Origin: Gloeocapsopsis sp. IPPAS B-1203
GTDB lineage: Bacteria > Cyanobacteriota > Cyanobacteriia > Cyanobacteriales > Chroococcidiopsidaceae
Reading direction: 5' to 3'
Length of the DNA stretch: 64,000 nt
NCBI RefSeq assembly: GCF_002749975.1
Contig: NZ_PEIG01000004.1
Coordinates: 1 to 64,000 of the forward strand
Shown here: one piece after another, positions 1,925 through 51,196 of the stretch
Position numbering within the stretch: position 1 is the first letter of the stretch
Layout: every line of letters begins with the position of its first letter
Notes under the pieces: generated by a model
Database searches by the model: none
What the model was told of the DNA's origin: nothing
What the model saw: only the letters and a program-made list of their open reading frames with translations
Program-made: the position numbers and the translations under genes

Positions 1925-2143
1925 TTTTTTTTGAATATTGAATTTATGAGAGTAACTACCTTGTTGAAGTGCGACAACTTAAGATTCAAGCGGTCTTTAC
2001 TCTGTCTTGCCTAGGTTTATATAGTGTACTTTTGCTCTTTACACGTCTAATCTAAAGTACAAGTTATATTTGATACTTTCCAGACGTTCTCTTAGCCGTT
2101 GTTGCTTTTTATCAAATACTTGTAATATTACTACTGAAAAGTA

Positions 2144-2157
2144 GAAGATCGATCTTC
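2144..2157. promoter_or_regulatory. palindrome before parA, candidate ParB/ParA site
   Basis: GAAGATCGATCTTC is a perfect 14-bp palindrome ending 5 bp before the parA ATG. It lies where a ribosome-binding site would be. The 16-bp string TAGAAGATCGATCTTC (2142-2157) recurs before parB. A repeated palindrome beside both partition genes suggests a parS-like centromere or an autoregulatory operator. The repetition is observed; the function is inferred. Confidence 0.5.
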
Positions 2158-2162
2158 CTAAA

Positions 2163-2996
2163 ATGCCCAAAGCCAAGAAAAGTAAAGATTTAAAGGCAGT
2201 TCGGCAAATTATCTTGTGGATTGTTGCAAATGCAGGTGGAATTGGTAAGACAACGCTGGGCGTTCATTTAGGATATCGACTTGCCCAGTTGGGGTTTAAC
2301 ACATTATTTGTTGACTTAGACACAAATGGTTCATTGGCTCGCTTTTGTGGATTAGAACCAGAACTTGATCCCAGCCTGACAACAGCAGCCTTATTTGATC
2401 GAACCTTTGCAGGAGATTATCCAATCCAGACACCAATATGGGGAACTCCACAAGGGAAATTTCAAATTTGCCAAGGTGGTCCAGTAATGATGCAGGTAGG
2501 AGTAGATTTACCAACTCGGACTGGACGTGAGTTTGTGTTGAGAAAAACATTGAAAAAATACCCTATTGTTTACGATGTAATCATTCTAGATTCACCAGCA
2601 TCTTTAGATGTACTAAGTTCCTGTGCCTTAGCTACAGCAACTCACATTTTGATTCCTCTACCAATGTCAGTCAAGTTATCTGGAGTTGATTGGCTGTTGC
2701 AGTGGATTCGGGATGAGGCGGAAGCTCTTGATCTCGATCCAGTACCAAAATTGTTAGGTGGTGTTCCCGTACGTGTTGCGAGCAATGCTGACCAGCAGGT
2801 GTTTTATAGCGAGATTGGACAAGTGTTAGCCGCACAAGGTATCCCTTGCTTTCCTGGAATTCGATATAGTGCTGAGTTTGAGAATGCATCAAATCGTGGA
2901 GTAGCTCCCCTCTATCTTCACCGCCCTAGTCATAATGCGTGCAAGGATTTTGAGCCAGTCATCAACGTATTAACTAAAGAGTTGACACAAACGTAA
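2163..2996 (+). CDS. parA: ParA-like partition ATPase
   Basis: 277 aa P-loop ATPase of the ParA/Soj/MinD group, which moves plasmids or chromosome origins by ATP-driven binding to DNA and to ParB. Visible motifs: Walker A at residues 23-31 (NAGGIGKTT), A' strand with Asp at 51 and 53 (VDLDTNGS), and Walker B at 138-144 (DVIILDS). The signature lysine of the usual deviant Walker A (KGGxGKT) is replaced by Ala24, which is unusual for a classical ParA. There is no N-terminal HTH domain, so this is the short (type Ib or chromosomal) size. parB follows 42 bp downstream on the same strand, so the two form an operon. A repeated palindrome precedes each. The ATG at 2163 is preceded by the palindrome rather than a clear Shine-Dalgarno. 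Confidence 0.88.
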   Translation: MPKAKKSKDLKAVRQIILWIVANAGGIGKTTLGVHLGYRLAQLGFNTLFVDLDTNGSLARFCGLEPELDPSLTTAALFDRTFAGDYPIQTPIWGTPQGKFQICQGGPVMMQVGVDLPTRTGREFVLRKTLKKYPIVYDVIILDSPASLDVLSSCALATATHILIPLPMSVKLSGVDWLLQWIRDEAEALDLDPVPKLLGGVPVRVASNADQQVFYSEIGQVLAAQGIPCFPGIRYSAEFENASNRGVAPLYLHRPSHNACKDFEPVINVLTKELTQT

Positions 2997-3002
2997 TCTA
3001 GA

Positions 3003-3020
3003 TAGAAGATCGATCTTCTA
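3003..3020. promoter_or_regulatory. palindrome before parB, candidate ParB/ParA site
   Basis: TAGAAGATCGATCTTCTA is a perfect 18-bp palindrome in the 42-bp gap between parA and parB. It shares 16 identical bases with the copy before parA. It is a candidate parS or operator; see the findings. Confidence 0.5.
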
Positions 3021-3038
3021 AAAATCAGGAAGAGTTCA

Positions 3039-4076
3039 ATGAGTAAAACACGTCCCAATGTTTCAACTTTTTTATCAGGTAGCAATCGAGCACTGCAGAC
3101 ACAACGGGAATTAGCAGATGCGAAAGAGCAAATTGCTCAATTAGAAAAAGAAATAGAAACAGAACGTCAAGAAATTCAGTCAATTTTGTCAGAACATAAA
3201 GTTAGCCAAGCAACTGTCCCTATTGCTCAGATTCTGCATCGTCCCTACCAATCGCGGCGTGAGAAAGAGCCTCAAGCATTTGAAGCACTGATTCAAAGTA
3301 TTAAACTGTATGGTTTTCGGGGTGCTATATGGGTACAACGTTTAGCGAATGGTCAATTACGACTCATTGCTGGTGAAACACGGTTAGATGCTGCAATTGA
3401 AGTTGGGTTAACTGAGATTACTGTAGATATTGTTGAAACTGATGATATTACGGCAGTTAAGCTGTCTCGCATGGAGAACTCTAGACGCAGAAATCTAAAT
3501 GCGTTAGATGATACTGAAGAAATTTTATATTTGTTGACCTTGGTCTTGGATCAACCACGAGACAAAGTAATATCGCTACTATATAGGTTTAAAAATGCAA
3601 CAGAAGGAAAATCTTCATTAGATCCAGAGATTCGAGACAAGATTGAATCTGTGTTTCAAGAAGTTGCACCAGAGTTAGGAGTAATGACATATGTAACTTC
3701 TCGATTACCGTTACTCAATCTACCTAGCGATATATTGGAAGCTTACAACATGGGAATGTTACAGTACACAAAAGCTGTTGAGTTAGGACGAATTGAGGAT
3801 AAAATACTCCGCCAAGAATTATTAAGCGAGACAATTGAGCAGGGGTTATCCCTAGCAGAGCTTAAAGCTCGAATTCGTCCTACAAAATCTCCACGCACAG
3901 TTGCTGACCGAATAGAAAAGATACGGGAGCAGATTAACAGCATTAACCAGAAGTCTGTTAGCAAGTTATCTAAGCAACAACGACAGCAATTGAAGAAAAC
4001 AATTGAAGAACTAGAAATATTGCTTCAGGAAAAGCGTAAAGAGCTAGATTGGGACAATCGATTAACTGACAACTAG
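3039..4076 (+). CDS. parB: ParB-family partition protein
   Basis: 345 aa. An N-terminal coiled coil (about 21-55, rich in Glu, Gln and Lys) leads into a ParB/sulfiredoxin-fold domain. Box II is seen at 112-123 (GETRLDAAIEVG) and box III at 146-160 (ENSRRRNLNALDDTE). In studied ParB proteins these build the CTP-binding clamp. A helical HTH region follows at about 160-285 and a second coiled coil at 300-340. The protein should bind the centromere-like site and stimulate ParA. The order parA-parB, the matching palindromes and the decayed mobile DNA around it suggest a plasmid-derived partition cassette. GETRLDA deviates from the chromosomal GERR form, as many plasmid ParBs do. Confidence 0.85.
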   Translation: MSKTRPNVSTFLSGSNRALQTQRELADAKEQIAQLEKEIETERQEIQSILSEHKVSQATVPIAQILHRPYQSRREKEPQAFEALIQSIKLYGFRGAIWVQRLANGQLRLIAGETRLDAAIEVGLTEITVDIVETDDITAVKLSRMENSRRRNLNALDDTEEILYLLTLVLDQPRDKVISLLYRFKNATEGKSSLDPEIRDKIESVFQEVAPELGVMTYVTSRLPLLNLPSDILEAYNMGMLQYTKAVELGRIEDKILRQELLSETIEQGLSLAELKARIRPTKSPRTVADRIEKIREQINSINQKSVSKLSKQQRQQLKKTIEELEILLQEKRKELDWDNRLTDN

Positions 4077-4199
4077 GCTACTAGAAAAAGACAAAGGAAT
4101 TGCTAGCGCTTTGTTGTTGAGCAAGACTTTTCTGTACTTGTACTCTTTACCATCTCTTTACATAATAGGCTTACAGAAGCTAATTTATGGAAAACTATA

Positions 4200-5489
4200 T
4201 TATTTGTCTTTCAATATCAGTGTATATGCACCTAACTGACCAGGTACGCTTTTCCAGCGCCCTTGTTTAGCACCATTCCAGAGGATTTTGCCAACTTGCG
4301 CTTTAGCTTTAGTCAAAGCCTTACCTTCAATTTCCCCATATAATGCTCGTGCCACTTTTTCAGGAGTCAAAACCTCGCTATGCTGTTCTTCTACTATCAT
4401 TGTCACTGCTGCTGTGAAACTCATGTTTTGATAGCGCGCTAAGAGTTGCTCGTTCGATTTGGTTATTTGCTTTTGTTGGCGAGATTTAGTATCCTGAGCC
4501 GGCGAGTTTGATGCAATCAGTTTGAGGTCAATCGTATAGCAACCAGGAGAATCTGGGACTTTCTCCCAAAGTCCTTTTTCTACTCCCTTGCGCAGAGTAT
4601 CATTCATCCTCAACCTTTCTGCTTTGAGGTCTTGTGGCTCAACTTCTCCATGTACAGCACGAACAATGTAATCTAAGTGCAAAATACTGCCTTCATTTTC
4701 CTGCAATAACTGTTCAACAGCTTCAGATTTACTCAAGTGCTGATACTGTGGCAAAAGTGGTGTTTTGAGAAATTGCGATTGTGCTTTGTGCAACTTTGGA
4801 GAAGGCAATTGCTGGGGATGCTCCAAGAAAGTAGAATGCTCTGGATCTGGGAATTGAATGGGTGAGTCAGATTCTGAGTGCTGTTGTTCGTCTTGCTGGC
4901 GATTGAAAGCCGAGTTAACCACCTCTTTTTGGAGAAAATTTGTAGCAACAGATTGTTCTGAGTGTTCCGGTACTTGCTGTGACGGTTGCTGTTCGCTTTC
5001 ATGGAGCAATTGGGTTAATACTTCATCAACTAACGTCGGCGAAGAAACCTCGCTATCTCTTGAAATATCAAGATGCTTCGGCTCGACAGTTGAGGATACC
5101 TCTGTGCGGGAGGTTTCTCCACGAATAGGAGTGTCCGGTGCTGATTGGATAATCTGAAGCTCGTTGTGCTGTAAGATGAGCTGGTCTGCTAAGAGTGCGT
5201 TAATATGCGCAATTTGCTCTTTAGCACTTTGGGCTTTTGAGTGTTGTTGTGCGTGTTGTGTTTGGTAGTGCGCTCGGAGTTGAAGTAGACTTTCCGTCAG
5301 TTGCTGTTGTTCGACTAACTGATCCACTAACAAAGCATGAATACGATTAAGTTGTTCAGTTGCATGCGAAATCGCACTGGCGCATTCTTGCACAATTCCT
5401 TGATAGCGATCGCGCAGTTCAATGAGGCTATGAATGAAGTGTTGGTTTTGAAGCATTTTTCGCTCTTGAGCGTGGAGTGTCGCTAGCAT
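4200..5489 (-). CDS. coiled-coil protein with tandem winged-helix-like repeats
   Basis: 429 aa, no named family recognised. Residues 1-115 are heptad-rich, with two similar copies of H/NALLxDQL (51-58 and 97-104), suggesting a duplicated coiled coil. Residues 115-245 are acidic, Ser/Gln/Pro-rich and probably disordered. Two related segments of about 72 residues follow: 249-320 and 353-424. Each starts with YQ(H/N)(L/M)S, contains (A/L)(V/L)xGE(V/I)E, then a basic W at GLWEKVP or GRWKSVP, and ends PGxYT or LGAYT. This layout resembles HARE-HTH-like winged-helix domains, but that is inference. It is convergent with parAB and may be a DNA-binding partner of the cassette. The start could also be Met12, which has a purine-rich leader. 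Confidence 0.75.
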   Translation of the reverse strand: MLATLHAQERKMLQNQHFIHSLIELRDRYQGIVQECASAISHATEQLNRIHALLVDQLVEQQQLTESLLQLRAHYQTQHAQQHSKAQSAKEQIAHINALLADQLILQHNELQIIQSAPDTPIRGETSRTEVSSTVEPKHLDISRDSEVSSPTLVDEVLTQLLHESEQQPSQQVPEHSEQSVATNFLQKEVVNSAFNRQQDEQQHSESDSPIQFPDPEHSTFLEHPQQLPSPKLHKAQSQFLKTPLLPQYQHLSKSEAVEQLLQENEGSILHLDYIVRAVHGEVEPQDLKAERLRMNDTLRKGVEKGLWEKVPDSPGCYTIDLKLIASNSPAQDTKSRQQKQITKSNEQLLARYQNMSFTAAVTMIVEEQHSEVLTPEKVARALYGEIEGKALTKAKAQVGKILWNGAKQGRWKSVPGQLGAYTLILKDK

Positions 5490-5758: not shown

Positions 5759-5824
5759 ACCAAGCTATTTGTCACATTGCTACGATGTACTAGCACAAAA
5801 GGTTAGTATAGAAGGGGAGGAAGA

Positions 5825-6279
5825 CTGAATCGGGAAATATACAGGCAGATCCGTCTCCATGCTAATGCGGCTCTAACTGTAAACAAAAGACGTGAAGTCA
5901 AATGACTGCACGAGGAAGAAGCAATGAAGATCAAAGCAATGGCGGAACGATTTCGAGTTCATAGCAGAACAATTCGACGCTGGATAGAGTGCTCAATTCC
6001 CGAAGAAAAAGCAGTGCACCATTGCAACCAAAACAAGTAGTGACAGAGGCTGACAAAGAAGCAGTGTTGGCATATCGAGCGCAACATCTGACTGAAGGAG
6101 CAAACCGAATTGCACAAGCACTCAAAGCCGAACTCAAGCTGTGGCAGTATCATTATAACTAGACTCGTCCGCATCAAGAGATTGGCAATCAGACTTCAAT
6201 GCAGGTCTATCGACAAAACTCTGCTTTGCATGCTGCCACTCGCATGCTAACCTCATGTGTCATTACAACTAGTGGCTAG
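5825..6279 (+). pseudogene. IS481/IS3-like transposase, internally deleted
   Basis: The upstream part reads LTVNKRREVK, a stop, then MKIKAMAERFRVHSRTIRRWI, an N-terminal helix-turn-helix of an integrase-type transposase. A frameshift near 6005 continues as ANRIAQALKAELK, which then jumps to WQYHYN, a stop, and TRPHQEIGNQTSMQVYRQ. The latter is the conserved end of the rve catalytic core (YNxxRPHQ). The central DDE core is missing, so the copy is a deletion derivative that cannot encode an active enzyme. The exact IS family is uncertain. Confidence 0.6.
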
Positions 6280-6330
6280 TTCTGTGTCACATCTATAGAA
6301 CTTAAAGAATTCACGCTTGTTCTAGAAAGT

Positions 6331-48577: not shown

Positions 48578-51196
48578 TTACCAAGTTATGCGGTAATTAA
48601 CACTAAGAGTTCTCCCTCGTGCTGGAAACCGATAAGAATTACCGAGAAAATCACCTTGGAATTGATTGAAAACAGGAGTGTATTGGGTATCGAGTAAATT
48701 TTCAATGCCAATATCAATTGTGCCTGCACCAAGTTGAATACTACTGATGTAGTCCAAGACGAAATAGCCATCGATTGATCCATTATCTGAACCAGCTTCA
48801 AAACCGCGATCGCGATCGCCAATATATAACGCTTGCAAACGGTTGCGCCAGCCAGGGGTTGTTTGATGTTGTAGATAAGCCGTGAGTTTAATCGGCGAGA
48901 CTTCTGCAGAATTGAGTGCTTGATAATTGCCATCACCCTCAAGATCGTTCTCACCTTCTTGCCATGTCAAAGAACCTCCCAGTGCAAGTGCGGTTGTTGC
49001 TTGCCAGTCAATCGCTGCTTCAATACCATAATTTCTTTGGGGTGCGCGTGCTAGAAGCAAAGTCCCAGGTAACTCAGGATTTTCAACTAAAGTTGTTCCT
49101 AAGTCAGATTGACTGTAGAATCCAGCTAGCGATGCTTGCACTGTGTTCCAGTTTCCCCGAATACCAATTTCGTAGTTATTTACTTTCTGCGGTTCGGAAA
49201 TATCAACATCGCGATCAAACCGAAACCCTGTAGTTGCATTAGAAAAAAGAATTCGGGCAATTGGTGCTAGCGAAAAACCTTGCGCAAAGTTAGCATAAAG
49301 ACTGATCGTATCACTCGGTTTGAAGACAACTCCGCTATTGAAAACCACATCGTCCAAGGTACGATTACCACCCTCGATTGGTTCGAGAAATTGATTAGTA
49401 AAGTCGGGGACATCAATTCCAAAGCGTTCGTAGCGCAAGCCACCACTTAACAACCATTGTTCGCTGACGTCCCATTGAAGTTGTCCAAATAAACCAAGGT
49501 TTTCAATACTAAAACGGGGATAGAATGTACGAGTTTCAGCAACACGTAAAACTCGACCGCCAGTTGCATCAAATTCATCGGCGTCGAAGATCGATAATTC
49601 ATCTTCTAAATTGGCATTTGAATAGTCAACTCCCCACAGCAAGTTTGCCGTGTTAAAGACAGGAGTTTCAACTTGAAATCTTGCACCCCACTTGTCATCA
49701 ATTGCGTTGCGGGTTGTAATTCCTAAGGGGTCATCAAAGGGTCTACCATCAAAGAATGTTGGGACAATGCGCGTGTAGCGGTAGTAAACTTGAGCATTTA
49801 ATTCACTCCCAAATAAGTCGGCGTGATTGTAGTCAAGCGTTAGGGCATAGTTTAAAGTTCGTGGTGGGTCAACTCCGATATATATCGGGTCAAAAGGAAT
49901 CGCACGGGCTTTACGCTCAAAAGGTAACAAGTCTACGCTGAGGTCAGAGGTGATACTGGGGTCATTGCGATCGCGTGTTAAATTTGCCGTCAGTTGTAAG
50001 CGTTGGTTTTCGTCAAAGCGTACCCCGACTTTACCCAATGCTTGCGTTGTGGCAGTTTCTGCCGTATTTTCATCGAAAGGAATGCGCGAACCTTCAGCAT
50101 CATAATTAATCCCCGTCGTTCGGCGCGACAACAGCGCAAAAACATCAAAGTTACCTTCAGCAATTGAAATTGAATGACTGAAGAAATTGCCAAAACTGTC
50201 AGATGCTAAATTGTCCGCCGCCTCAATACCTACCTGAGTTTCGGAAACTAATCTGTCTTCAGTTGGTCTGCGGGTAATAATATTAATCACCCCTCCTGTT
50301 CCACCATCTCCATACACCGCAGAAGGACCACGCACAACTTCAATTCGTTCTACTGCACTCGGTGCAATACTTCTCAGGTCGCGTTGATAGCCGACATTAC
50401 TATCATTTGAGGTGACGGGAACACCATCGATTAAGACTTGGGGTGGACGACCGCGTATCGTTGAATTTCTGATAGTTCCTGTTGGTGGAGCTGCGCCAGG
50501 AGTCAATTTACCGATAATATCGTCTAAGCCTCTCGATACTGGAGCTAATTGCTCAATCTGTTCTCGTTCAATAATTGTTACAGTACGCGGAACATTTTGT
50601 AATTCTTCTTCGGTGCGCGTTGCTGTCACGACGAGTTCAATTGCTTCGTCATCAGGTAATTGTTCGGATTGAGTTGTATCTGGCTGGGGTGGCGTTGGTG
50701 CGGTTGATGTTGTTGTACTTGGTGTTACACCTAAAATCAAACCTTCATCGCTGTCAAATAAATCTAGTGTAGGAACACCTTGCGTACCTGTGACTACCAG
50801 TCGAATTGTTTGGTTATCAAGGTTTATCAGTGCGATCTCCGCAATTCCTGAAACTGGATTACTTTGACGAAATTCTCCTGATGATAAACGCAGTTGTGCT
50901 GATTGAATGTCAGCAGTTAATACATTACCCTCACTTAGAGGTGTCACTTGCAACTGTTCGCCTTGGGTTGTTTCGAGAATAACTTCCAAACCTTGGTCGG
51001 TTTGTTCCACTCTGACGTTGCTAATCTCCACAATTGGCGATCGCATCAGCTGTGCTGTCTTAAGTGGCTTAGCTAACGTTGATACATCTCTAGAACTTTG
51101 TGCTAAAACCTGCGCCTCTGCACAATTTGCACTAGTCGATAAGACAGCAATAATTGAACCTGCTAAAAACAAACTTGGCAATAATTTGACATTCAT
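48578..51196 (-). CDS. TonB-dependent receptor with AMIN domain, siderophore cluster
   Basis: 872 aa. Signal peptide (LLPSLFLAGSIIAVLSTS, cleavage near CAEAQ), AMIN domain at about 55-150, then TonB-box-like IELVVTATRTEEELQNVPRT and the plug: RGLDDIIGKLTPGAAPPTG, IRGRPPQVLIDGVPV, ERIEVVRGPSAVYGDGGTGG followed by VINIITRRP. The barrel ends LSVNYRITW with aromatic Trp. The plug resembles the catecholate/BtuB-FepA type rather than the FhuA type of the other receptor here. First gene of the minus-strand set, transcribed away from the NRPS genes across a 556-bp shared promoter region. Confidence 0.93.
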   Translation of the reverse strand: MNVKLLPSLFLAGSIIAVLSTSANCAEAQVLAQSSRDVSTLAKPLKTAQLMRSPIVEISNVRVEQTDQGLEVILETTQGEQLQVTPLSEGNVLTADIQSAQLRLSSGEFRQSNPVSGIAEIALINLDNQTIRLVVTGTQGVPTLDLFDSDEGLILGVTPSTTTSTAPTPPQPDTTQSEQLPDDEAIELVVTATRTEEELQNVPRTVTIIEREQIEQLAPVSRGLDDIIGKLTPGAAPPTGTIRNSTIRGRPPQVLIDGVPVTSNDSNVGYQRDLRSIAPSAVERIEVVRGPSAVYGDGGTGGVINIITRRPTEDRLVSETQVGIEAADNLASDSFGNFFSHSISIAEGNFDVFALLSRRTTGINYDAEGSRIPFDENTAETATTQALGKVGVRFDENQRLQLTANLTRDRNDPSITSDLSVDLLPFERKARAIPFDPIYIGVDPPRTLNYALTLDYNHADLFGSELNAQVYYRYTRIVPTFFDGRPFDDPLGITTRNAIDDKWGARFQVETPVFNTANLLWGVDYSNANLEDELSIFDADEFDATGGRVLRVAETRTFYPRFSIENLGLFGQLQWDVSEQWLLSGGLRYERFGIDVPDFTNQFLEPIEGGNRTLDDVVFNSGVVFKPSDTISLYANFAQGFSLAPIARILFSNATTGFRFDRDVDISEPQKVNNYEIGIRGNWNTVQASLAGFYSQSDLGTTLVENPELPGTLLLARAPQRNYGIEAAIDWQATTALALGGSLTWQEGENDLEGDGNYQALNSAEVSPIKLTAYLQHQTTPGWRNRLQALYIGDRDRGFEAGSDNGSIDGYFVLDYISSIQLGAGTIDIGIENLLDTQYTPVFNQFQGDFLGNSYRFPARGRTLSVNYRITW

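Follow-up and report, generated by a model that had tools for sequence, protein, structure and literature searches.

The window analysed here covers the opening 64 kb of a 403-kb contig, C4, in a 5.9-Mb cyanobacterial genome, and close to its start it carries a parA gene directly followed by parB, each preceded by the same palindrome. The features concerned, followed by two loci outside the window that are used for comparison, are:

2163 to 2996, forward strand: parA, encoding a 277-aa ParA-type ATPase (AAA_31, 5e-22; CbiA, 1e-14)
3039 to 4076, forward strand: parB, encoding a 345-aa protein (ParB_N, 4e-10; HTH_ParB, 5e-5)
2142 to 2157, no strand: candidate parS/operator site 1, GAAGATCGATCTTC (2144-2157) plus TA
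3003 to 3020, no strand: candidate parS/operator site 2, TAGAAGATCGATCTTCTA, perfectly palindromic over 18 bp and placed between parA and parB
4200 to 5489, reverse strand: gene for a 429-aa protein, a frequent neighbour of parAB, which served as the negative control for ownership of the palindrome
386 to 688: transposase remnant to the left of parAB (DDE_3 match)
5779 to 6290: transposase-like debris to the right of parAB, recognised by reading
Contig C13 of the same genome (locus L079), 3091 to 4790: a second, distant parAB with a palindrome, CTGTGGATAACGTTATCCACAG, inside parB
Nostoc sp. UHCC 0926 plasmid pn1 (locus L076), 2374 to 3497: a parB relative split into two ORFs

The AAA_31 and CbiA matches of ParA exceed the curated cut-offs, and ParA structures are found among its phmmer matches. 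Only about 23 residues lie N-terminal to the Walker A motif, too few to accommodate a DNA-binding domain there, and no domain match to a DNA-binding domain was obtained for this ParA. The Walker A motif reads ANAGGIGKT, without the usual signature lysine. This residue is also missing from the ParA of L008, L009, L034, L035, L060, L061, L076 and many related loci; many relatives have NQSGGVGKS or NQAGGVGKT, and others retain KGG. McdA structures are likewise among the phmmer matches, and McdA presumably lacks the signature lysine too. ParB consists of a long N-terminal helix, the ParB_N domain, the helix-turn-helix domain and C-terminal helices; ParB_N lies above its Pfam cut-off and HTH_ParB barely so, and the NCBIfam partition models match both proteins, all under their curated cut-offs (parB_part on ParB, 49.6 bits against 58.45). 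The structural model of ParB, built on a shallow alignment of 3 rows, has a mean pLDDT of 78.9 and finds its best fold matches in Noc, ParB and KorB with modest TM-scores, while sequence matches to ParBs of solved structure are weak (best 3e-10). Five residues that contribute to CTP binding in other ParBs, G112, E113, R115, E146 and N147, do not vary across 11 aligned ParBs; where relatives have a GERRYRA-type motif, the clade of the window has GETRLDA. Judged by its sequence, the cassette is a putative type I ParABS system, with a CTPase-type domain in its ParB: a ParA-type ATPase, a parB directly downstream with ParB_N and helix-turn-helix domains, and close to both a palindromic candidate parS that is specific to its own ParB type.

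The cassette lies beside transposase remnants, and today it may serve to segregate the chromosome, an integrated element or nothing at all. From 6346 onward the window is collinear with a 5.3-Mb contig of genome G015, which argues that C4 is chromosomal, and the first 6.3 kb, which hold parAB, find no match at the equivalent position of either G015 or G014. Within the debris on the right, positions 5779-6027 are 95% identical to contig C9, and C4 itself breaks at its start in a 252-bp repeat common to contig C25. Taken together with a 6.28-Mb contig that carries the cassette in genome G104, the chromosomal nature of C4 indicates that the cassette is at least sometimes chromosomal, perhaps deriving from an integrated plasmid.

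An earlier note, made from the letters of this DNA, had pointed to a repeated 16-mer next to parA and parB, and the repeat is confirmed. The 16-mer, TAGAAGATCGATCTTC, occurs at exactly two positions of the window, 2142-2157 and 3003-3018, and includes the 14-bp palindrome GAAGATCGATCTTC at 2144-2157 and 3005-3018; perfect symmetry spans 14 bp in the first copy and 18 bp in the second (3003-3020). Both copies lie immediately upstream of a start codon, as had been claimed, the first ending 5 nt before the parA ATG (2163) and the second following the parA stop (2996) and ending 18 nt before the parB ATG (3039). The statement that the window holds no other copy is equally borne out: with up to 3 mismatches allowed to the 14-mer, the single additional match, at 49586, has all three, and the resulting total of 3 is at the level of shuffled sequence (mean 2.63), so that weight can be placed only on the exact copies. 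GAAGATCGATCTTC is the sole 14-bp perfect palindrome that is repeated in the window. Neither site has a conspicuous promoter nearby (5 promoter-like sites against 5.8 expected).

The same arrangement is found wherever a ParB of this type was encountered, namely in the window and in loci L008, L034, L035 and L060, whose ParBs are 57-63% identical to that of the window; L060 (62%) was added from the species collection, as was the more distant L061 (48%). In all five loci, variants of a 20-bp palindrome, TTAGAAGATCGATCTTCTAA, are found upstream of parA as well as between parA and parB, at 2-4 sites per locus, which was the comparison of orthologous intergenic regions that the earlier note had asked for. 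Exact copies number two in L008, three each in L034 and L035 and one in L060; the last has two further copies with one mismatch before parA, and its gap copy is short of two bases. Apart from this 2-bp loss, the copies deviate from the clade 20-mer by 0-3 mismatches (3 at site 1, 1 at site 2 of the window). L034 and L035 have two gap sites, one of which overlaps the parA stop. The distance from a site to the next start codon ranges from 2 to about 185 nt among the loci (with an inferred parA start in L060) and the parA-parB gap from 42 to 202 bp. Outside the sites the intergenic DNA is not conserved, no word of more than 9 bases being common to different loci once the sites are masked; the exception, a 16-base word common to L034 and L035, is itself a site that was cut by the edge of the slice and so left unmasked. 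In a phylum-wide sample of 386 genomes, the clade profile found at E<=1e-60 only the genome of the window itself, and no new locus was added. Since ParB of this type is rare, the association is based on five loci, two of which (L034 and L035) are close relatives.

The association holds at the scale of whole genomes. Scatter of the palindrome through the genome had been named as a point to check, and in the 57 contigs (5,911,141 bp) the exact 14-mer occurs at two places, both at parAB, and its reversed control at none; the expected count is 0.00023 in the window and 0.021 in the genome under a first-order Markov model estimated from the window. The 18-mer at up to 3 mismatches has 5 places in the genome, the same number as its reversed control, so these loose matches are noise. 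A scan of 388 genomes of the order found the exact 18-mer in four, at 9 places, every one of them at parAB, and the reversed 18-mer in none; beside the genome of the window the carriers are G003, G104 and G196. These are exactly the four genomes, the window's own counted, that encode a ParB of at least 57% identity when up to five candidates per genome are scored, the next-best identity among the matches listed being 41%. The exact 14-mer is confined to parAB in G000 (the genome of the window), G003, G196 and G388, and has one additional place in G104. Even with one mismatch allowed, the 14-mer is absent from the genome of L061 (ParB identity 48-50%). The motif and the window type of ParB therefore go together. 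In the plasmid collection the 20-mer is absent, the best match being one of 17 bases in Rhizobium, and no ParB of at least 60% identity is among the matches listed, although plasmids very near the genome of the window may be excluded from that collection; no ParB relative was found in the viral collection. The 16-mer does occur in three viral contigs, within ORFs that, from ORF lists inspected by eye, are unlike ParA and ParB, and these occurrences were taken as chance.

More distant relatives place a palindrome elsewhere. A ParB of the broad family is carried by 169 of the 388 genomes (up to five candidates each), and in distant parB genes of Cyanobacteria and Thermus (28-41% identity) an AACGTT-centred palindrome lies inside parB in 41 of the 43 scored, a set that is not independent since several rows are near-identical. 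Of these 41, 40 have 9 or more of the 11 arm pairs matched. The centre coincides with an Asn|Val codon boundary, mostly 41-44 codons after the EN..R..L motif (53 codons in L032 and 74 in L029). When the palindrome was scored at this fixed place, at most 5 of 500 synonymous resamplings were equally good in 33 of 43 genes (32 of the 41 with AACGTT, plus L009), and the excess was weaker, with more than 5 of 500 equally good, in the other 10. When the longest perfect palindrome of the whole gene was compared with synonymous shuffles, at most 2 of 200 were as long in 31 of 46 distant rows; the 15 that do not pass reflect the poor score of imperfect or short palindromes in this test. These counts follow the removal, before tree and count, of L015 (ORF mis-called) and of L031 and L033 (which show L029 and L032 a second time), leaving 48 distant rows: the 43 scored and five without the EN..R..L motif (L019, L024, L026, L027, L030). 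Four of these five show AACGTT palindromes of 20-24 bp in the whole-gene test and L024 none; L073 and L074 were included in the fixed-place test and absent from the whole-gene test. L009 has a palindrome of another core at the same place in parB. L036 is without an intragenic AACGTT palindrome, and on its plasmid (L075, Gloeothece) two copies lie 3' of the gene instead. L042, L048 and the Nostoc locus L076 each have a second near-copy outside parB. Two Thermus plasmids have an AACGTT palindrome at the same place in parB, and Thermus plasmid ParBs are among the tblastn matches of the window ParB.

No such palindrome is the longest one in the parB of the window, L008, L034, L035, L060 or L061; near the old place, the parB of L034 has a 14-bp HIP-like palindrome, CCGATCGCGATCGG, which 38 of 200 shuffles equal. 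As to the split parB of Nostoc, its ParA partner is 45% identical to that of the window, and in addition to an AACGTT palindrome before parA there is a copy inside parB that keeps the arms but is imperfect. The fixed place of AACGTT, together with the gel shift by a Thermus thermophilus HB27 ParB on an intragenic palindrome of another sequence (PMC4409726), suggests that the intragenic palindromes are probably parS and that the sites of the window are their counterparts. Among the open-licence papers listed by our searches, which are weak evidence, there is no report of a fixed AACGTT palindrome inside parB.

We propose, with a probability of roughly 0.86, that the palindromes of the window are the binding sites of the adjacent ParB, that is parS, so placed that they would also mediate repression of parAB; in other words, they would probably be centromere and autoregulatory operator at once. 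This reading, which sustains the parS/operator suggestion of the earlier note, draws on the exclusive link of the motif to one ParB type, the conservation of both positions amid unconserved surroundings, and the domains of ParB. In such a scheme, the helix-turn-helix domains of a ParB dimer would each contact one half of a palindrome; the bound ParB would then load as a CTP-dependent clamp and spread, and the ParA ATPase would move the ParB-DNA complex. ParB seated on site 1, so close to the parA start codon (5 nt), and on site 2, in the parA-parB gap, would repress the operon. It could be argued instead that the sites are solely the autoregulatory operator of parAB, with the true centromere elsewhere, a view that accords with their position just 5' of two start codons and with the AACGTT palindromes found 114 nt before parA in L061 (TAGAAAAACGTTTTTCTA) and 102 nt before it in L076. 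We consider this unlikely: the presence of 2-4 copies per locus at such variable distances from the start codons, the paired gap sites of L034 and L035 with one overlapping the parA stop, and the residence of the distant palindromes mostly inside parB, or downstream of it on one plasmid, where they are no simple operator, speak against it, and the window offers no other repeated 14-bp perfect palindrome.

The 429-aa gene raises the question of whether the palindrome belongs to another DNA-binding protein, its position at parAB being fortuitous. The 429-aa protein, which has no Pfam or NCBIfam match, appears by eye to contain a coiled coil and two similar C-terminal segments. Homologues exist in 17 of 19 family genomes, and in a comparison by eye one lies within about 2 kb of a parB at nine places: C4 and C13 of G000, and in G013, G012, G014, G017, G001, G006 and C147 of G003. 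A fragment of the gene near a parB on C113 of G003 makes a tenth place, and the remaining homologues are on contigs or at positions without a parB match. Since the gene so often adjoins parAB, it is a candidate for a third member of such cassettes; it is also present on the contig of L008, and its product might be thought to own the palindrome. Against this, the 91%-identical copy on C13 adjoins a different parAB that is without GAAGATCGATCTTC and carries a 22-bp palindrome of its own, whose 18-bp core is unique in the whole genome when exact and has one place at 2 mismatches; the palindrome thus follows ParB. Moreover, the motif is present in L034, L035 and L060, in whose stretches no similar ORF was seen by reading rather than by alignment. 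That the palindrome serves the 429-aa protein or another regulator of this kind is accordingly very improbable.

Action of the palindromes in RNA, as hairpins in the parA and parB leaders, can hardly be credited: a hairpin at site 1 would occupy the ribosome-binding position of parA, but the predicted folds are unremarkable (z of -1.5 and +0.5), the sites lie anywhere between 2 and about 185 nt from the start codon, and the loci present near-exact repeats with no compensatory changes. The notion of a chance or over-represented word, such as a GATC-rich cyanobacterial repeat, has a negligible probability, since the GATCGATC core and the ten one-mismatch 14-mers away from parAB in each of G104 and G196 (reversed control 2 and 0) are set against an exact 14-mer that is restricted to parAB in four genomes with one stray place in a fifth and, above all, an 18-mer exclusive to parAB across 388 genomes.

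If the palindromes are indeed the parS of this ParB, their history can be considered. In the ParB tree, from which L075 and L076 (with its split parB) were left out, the five proteins of the window type form a clade (98/89) with L061 as its sister (100/100); L009 joins next (94/83), on long branches and thus unsurely. The parB of L061 was found to contain no AACGTT palindrome of the kind described, and the palindrome before its parA has the outer arms TAGAA...TTCTA that recur in the window clade around a GATC|GATC core. At the old place the ParBs of the window clade read Lys-Asn-Ala, with no Asn-Val. The intragenic AACGTT of distant parB genes and the AACGTT before parA in L061 suggest that the window clade has probably moved, multiplied and re-cored its parS. 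We would give even odds to a stepwise course, whereby parS left parB, came to lie before parA with its AACGTT core (L061), and then became multiple intergenic copies with GATC|GATC. The tree being unrooted, the direction of the move is our inference from single representatives. If true, it would make a stepwise co-evolution of ParB and parS testable with existing proteins, and would imply that the ParB linker was freed of its DNA duty. It may be speculated that the two GATC words of the new core render the site sensitive to GATC methylation.

The outcome is a short, testable candidate parS for one clade, and from the comparison parS sites can be predicted for some forty other par loci, mostly within the parB gene. 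If the proposal is right, these loci would provide natural sites and proteins with which to study the joint change of ParB specificity and centromere position, as well as a ready-made centromere with which cyanobacterial vectors could be stabilised.

Among known systems, the chromosomal ParB and Noc proteins resemble the window ParB in having ParB_N and helix-turn-helix domains and the residues presumed to bind CTP, and a difference is that the GERRYRA-type motif of relatives is GETRLDA here. The chromosomal (Spo0J-type) parS has the 16-mer consensus TGTTTCACGTGAAACA, to which the window site, with its GATCGATC core, bears no resemblance. KorB of plasmid RK2 is a ParB-fold protein that acts both as a centromere-binding protein and as a repressor from operators near promoters, its many sites being dispersed over the plasmid; its likeness to the window ParB (8qa8, 8qa9; 16-17% identity) is one of fold only. 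Among the open-licence papers listed by the searches, weak evidence in itself, we found no mapped parS for a cyanobacterial plasmid-type ParABS. On a plasmid of T. thermophilus HB27, ParB gives a specific gel shift with a 14-bp palindrome of its own par locus, the megaplasmid parSm being AAGGACGCGTCCTT, which is not centred on AACGTT and lies inside parBm (PMC4409726). The window shares with parABm-parSm a replicon-specific 14-bp palindrome at the par locus; unlike parSm, its sites are outside parB, duplicated and of another sequence. In the repABC replicons of Rhizobiales, parS is usually situated immediately 5' of repA and in the repA-repB gap (PMC9040568). The candidate sites of the window resemble those of repABC in being palindromes before the A gene and in the A-B gap, in a position that drifts between lineages. 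They differ in that no repC was seen adjacent to the window parAB, its ParA is short and its core is GATCGATC. Because this layout is known from repABC (PMC9040568), the window system is ordinary as a system; what is new here, as far as the literature listings could tell, is the sequence of the site and its history.
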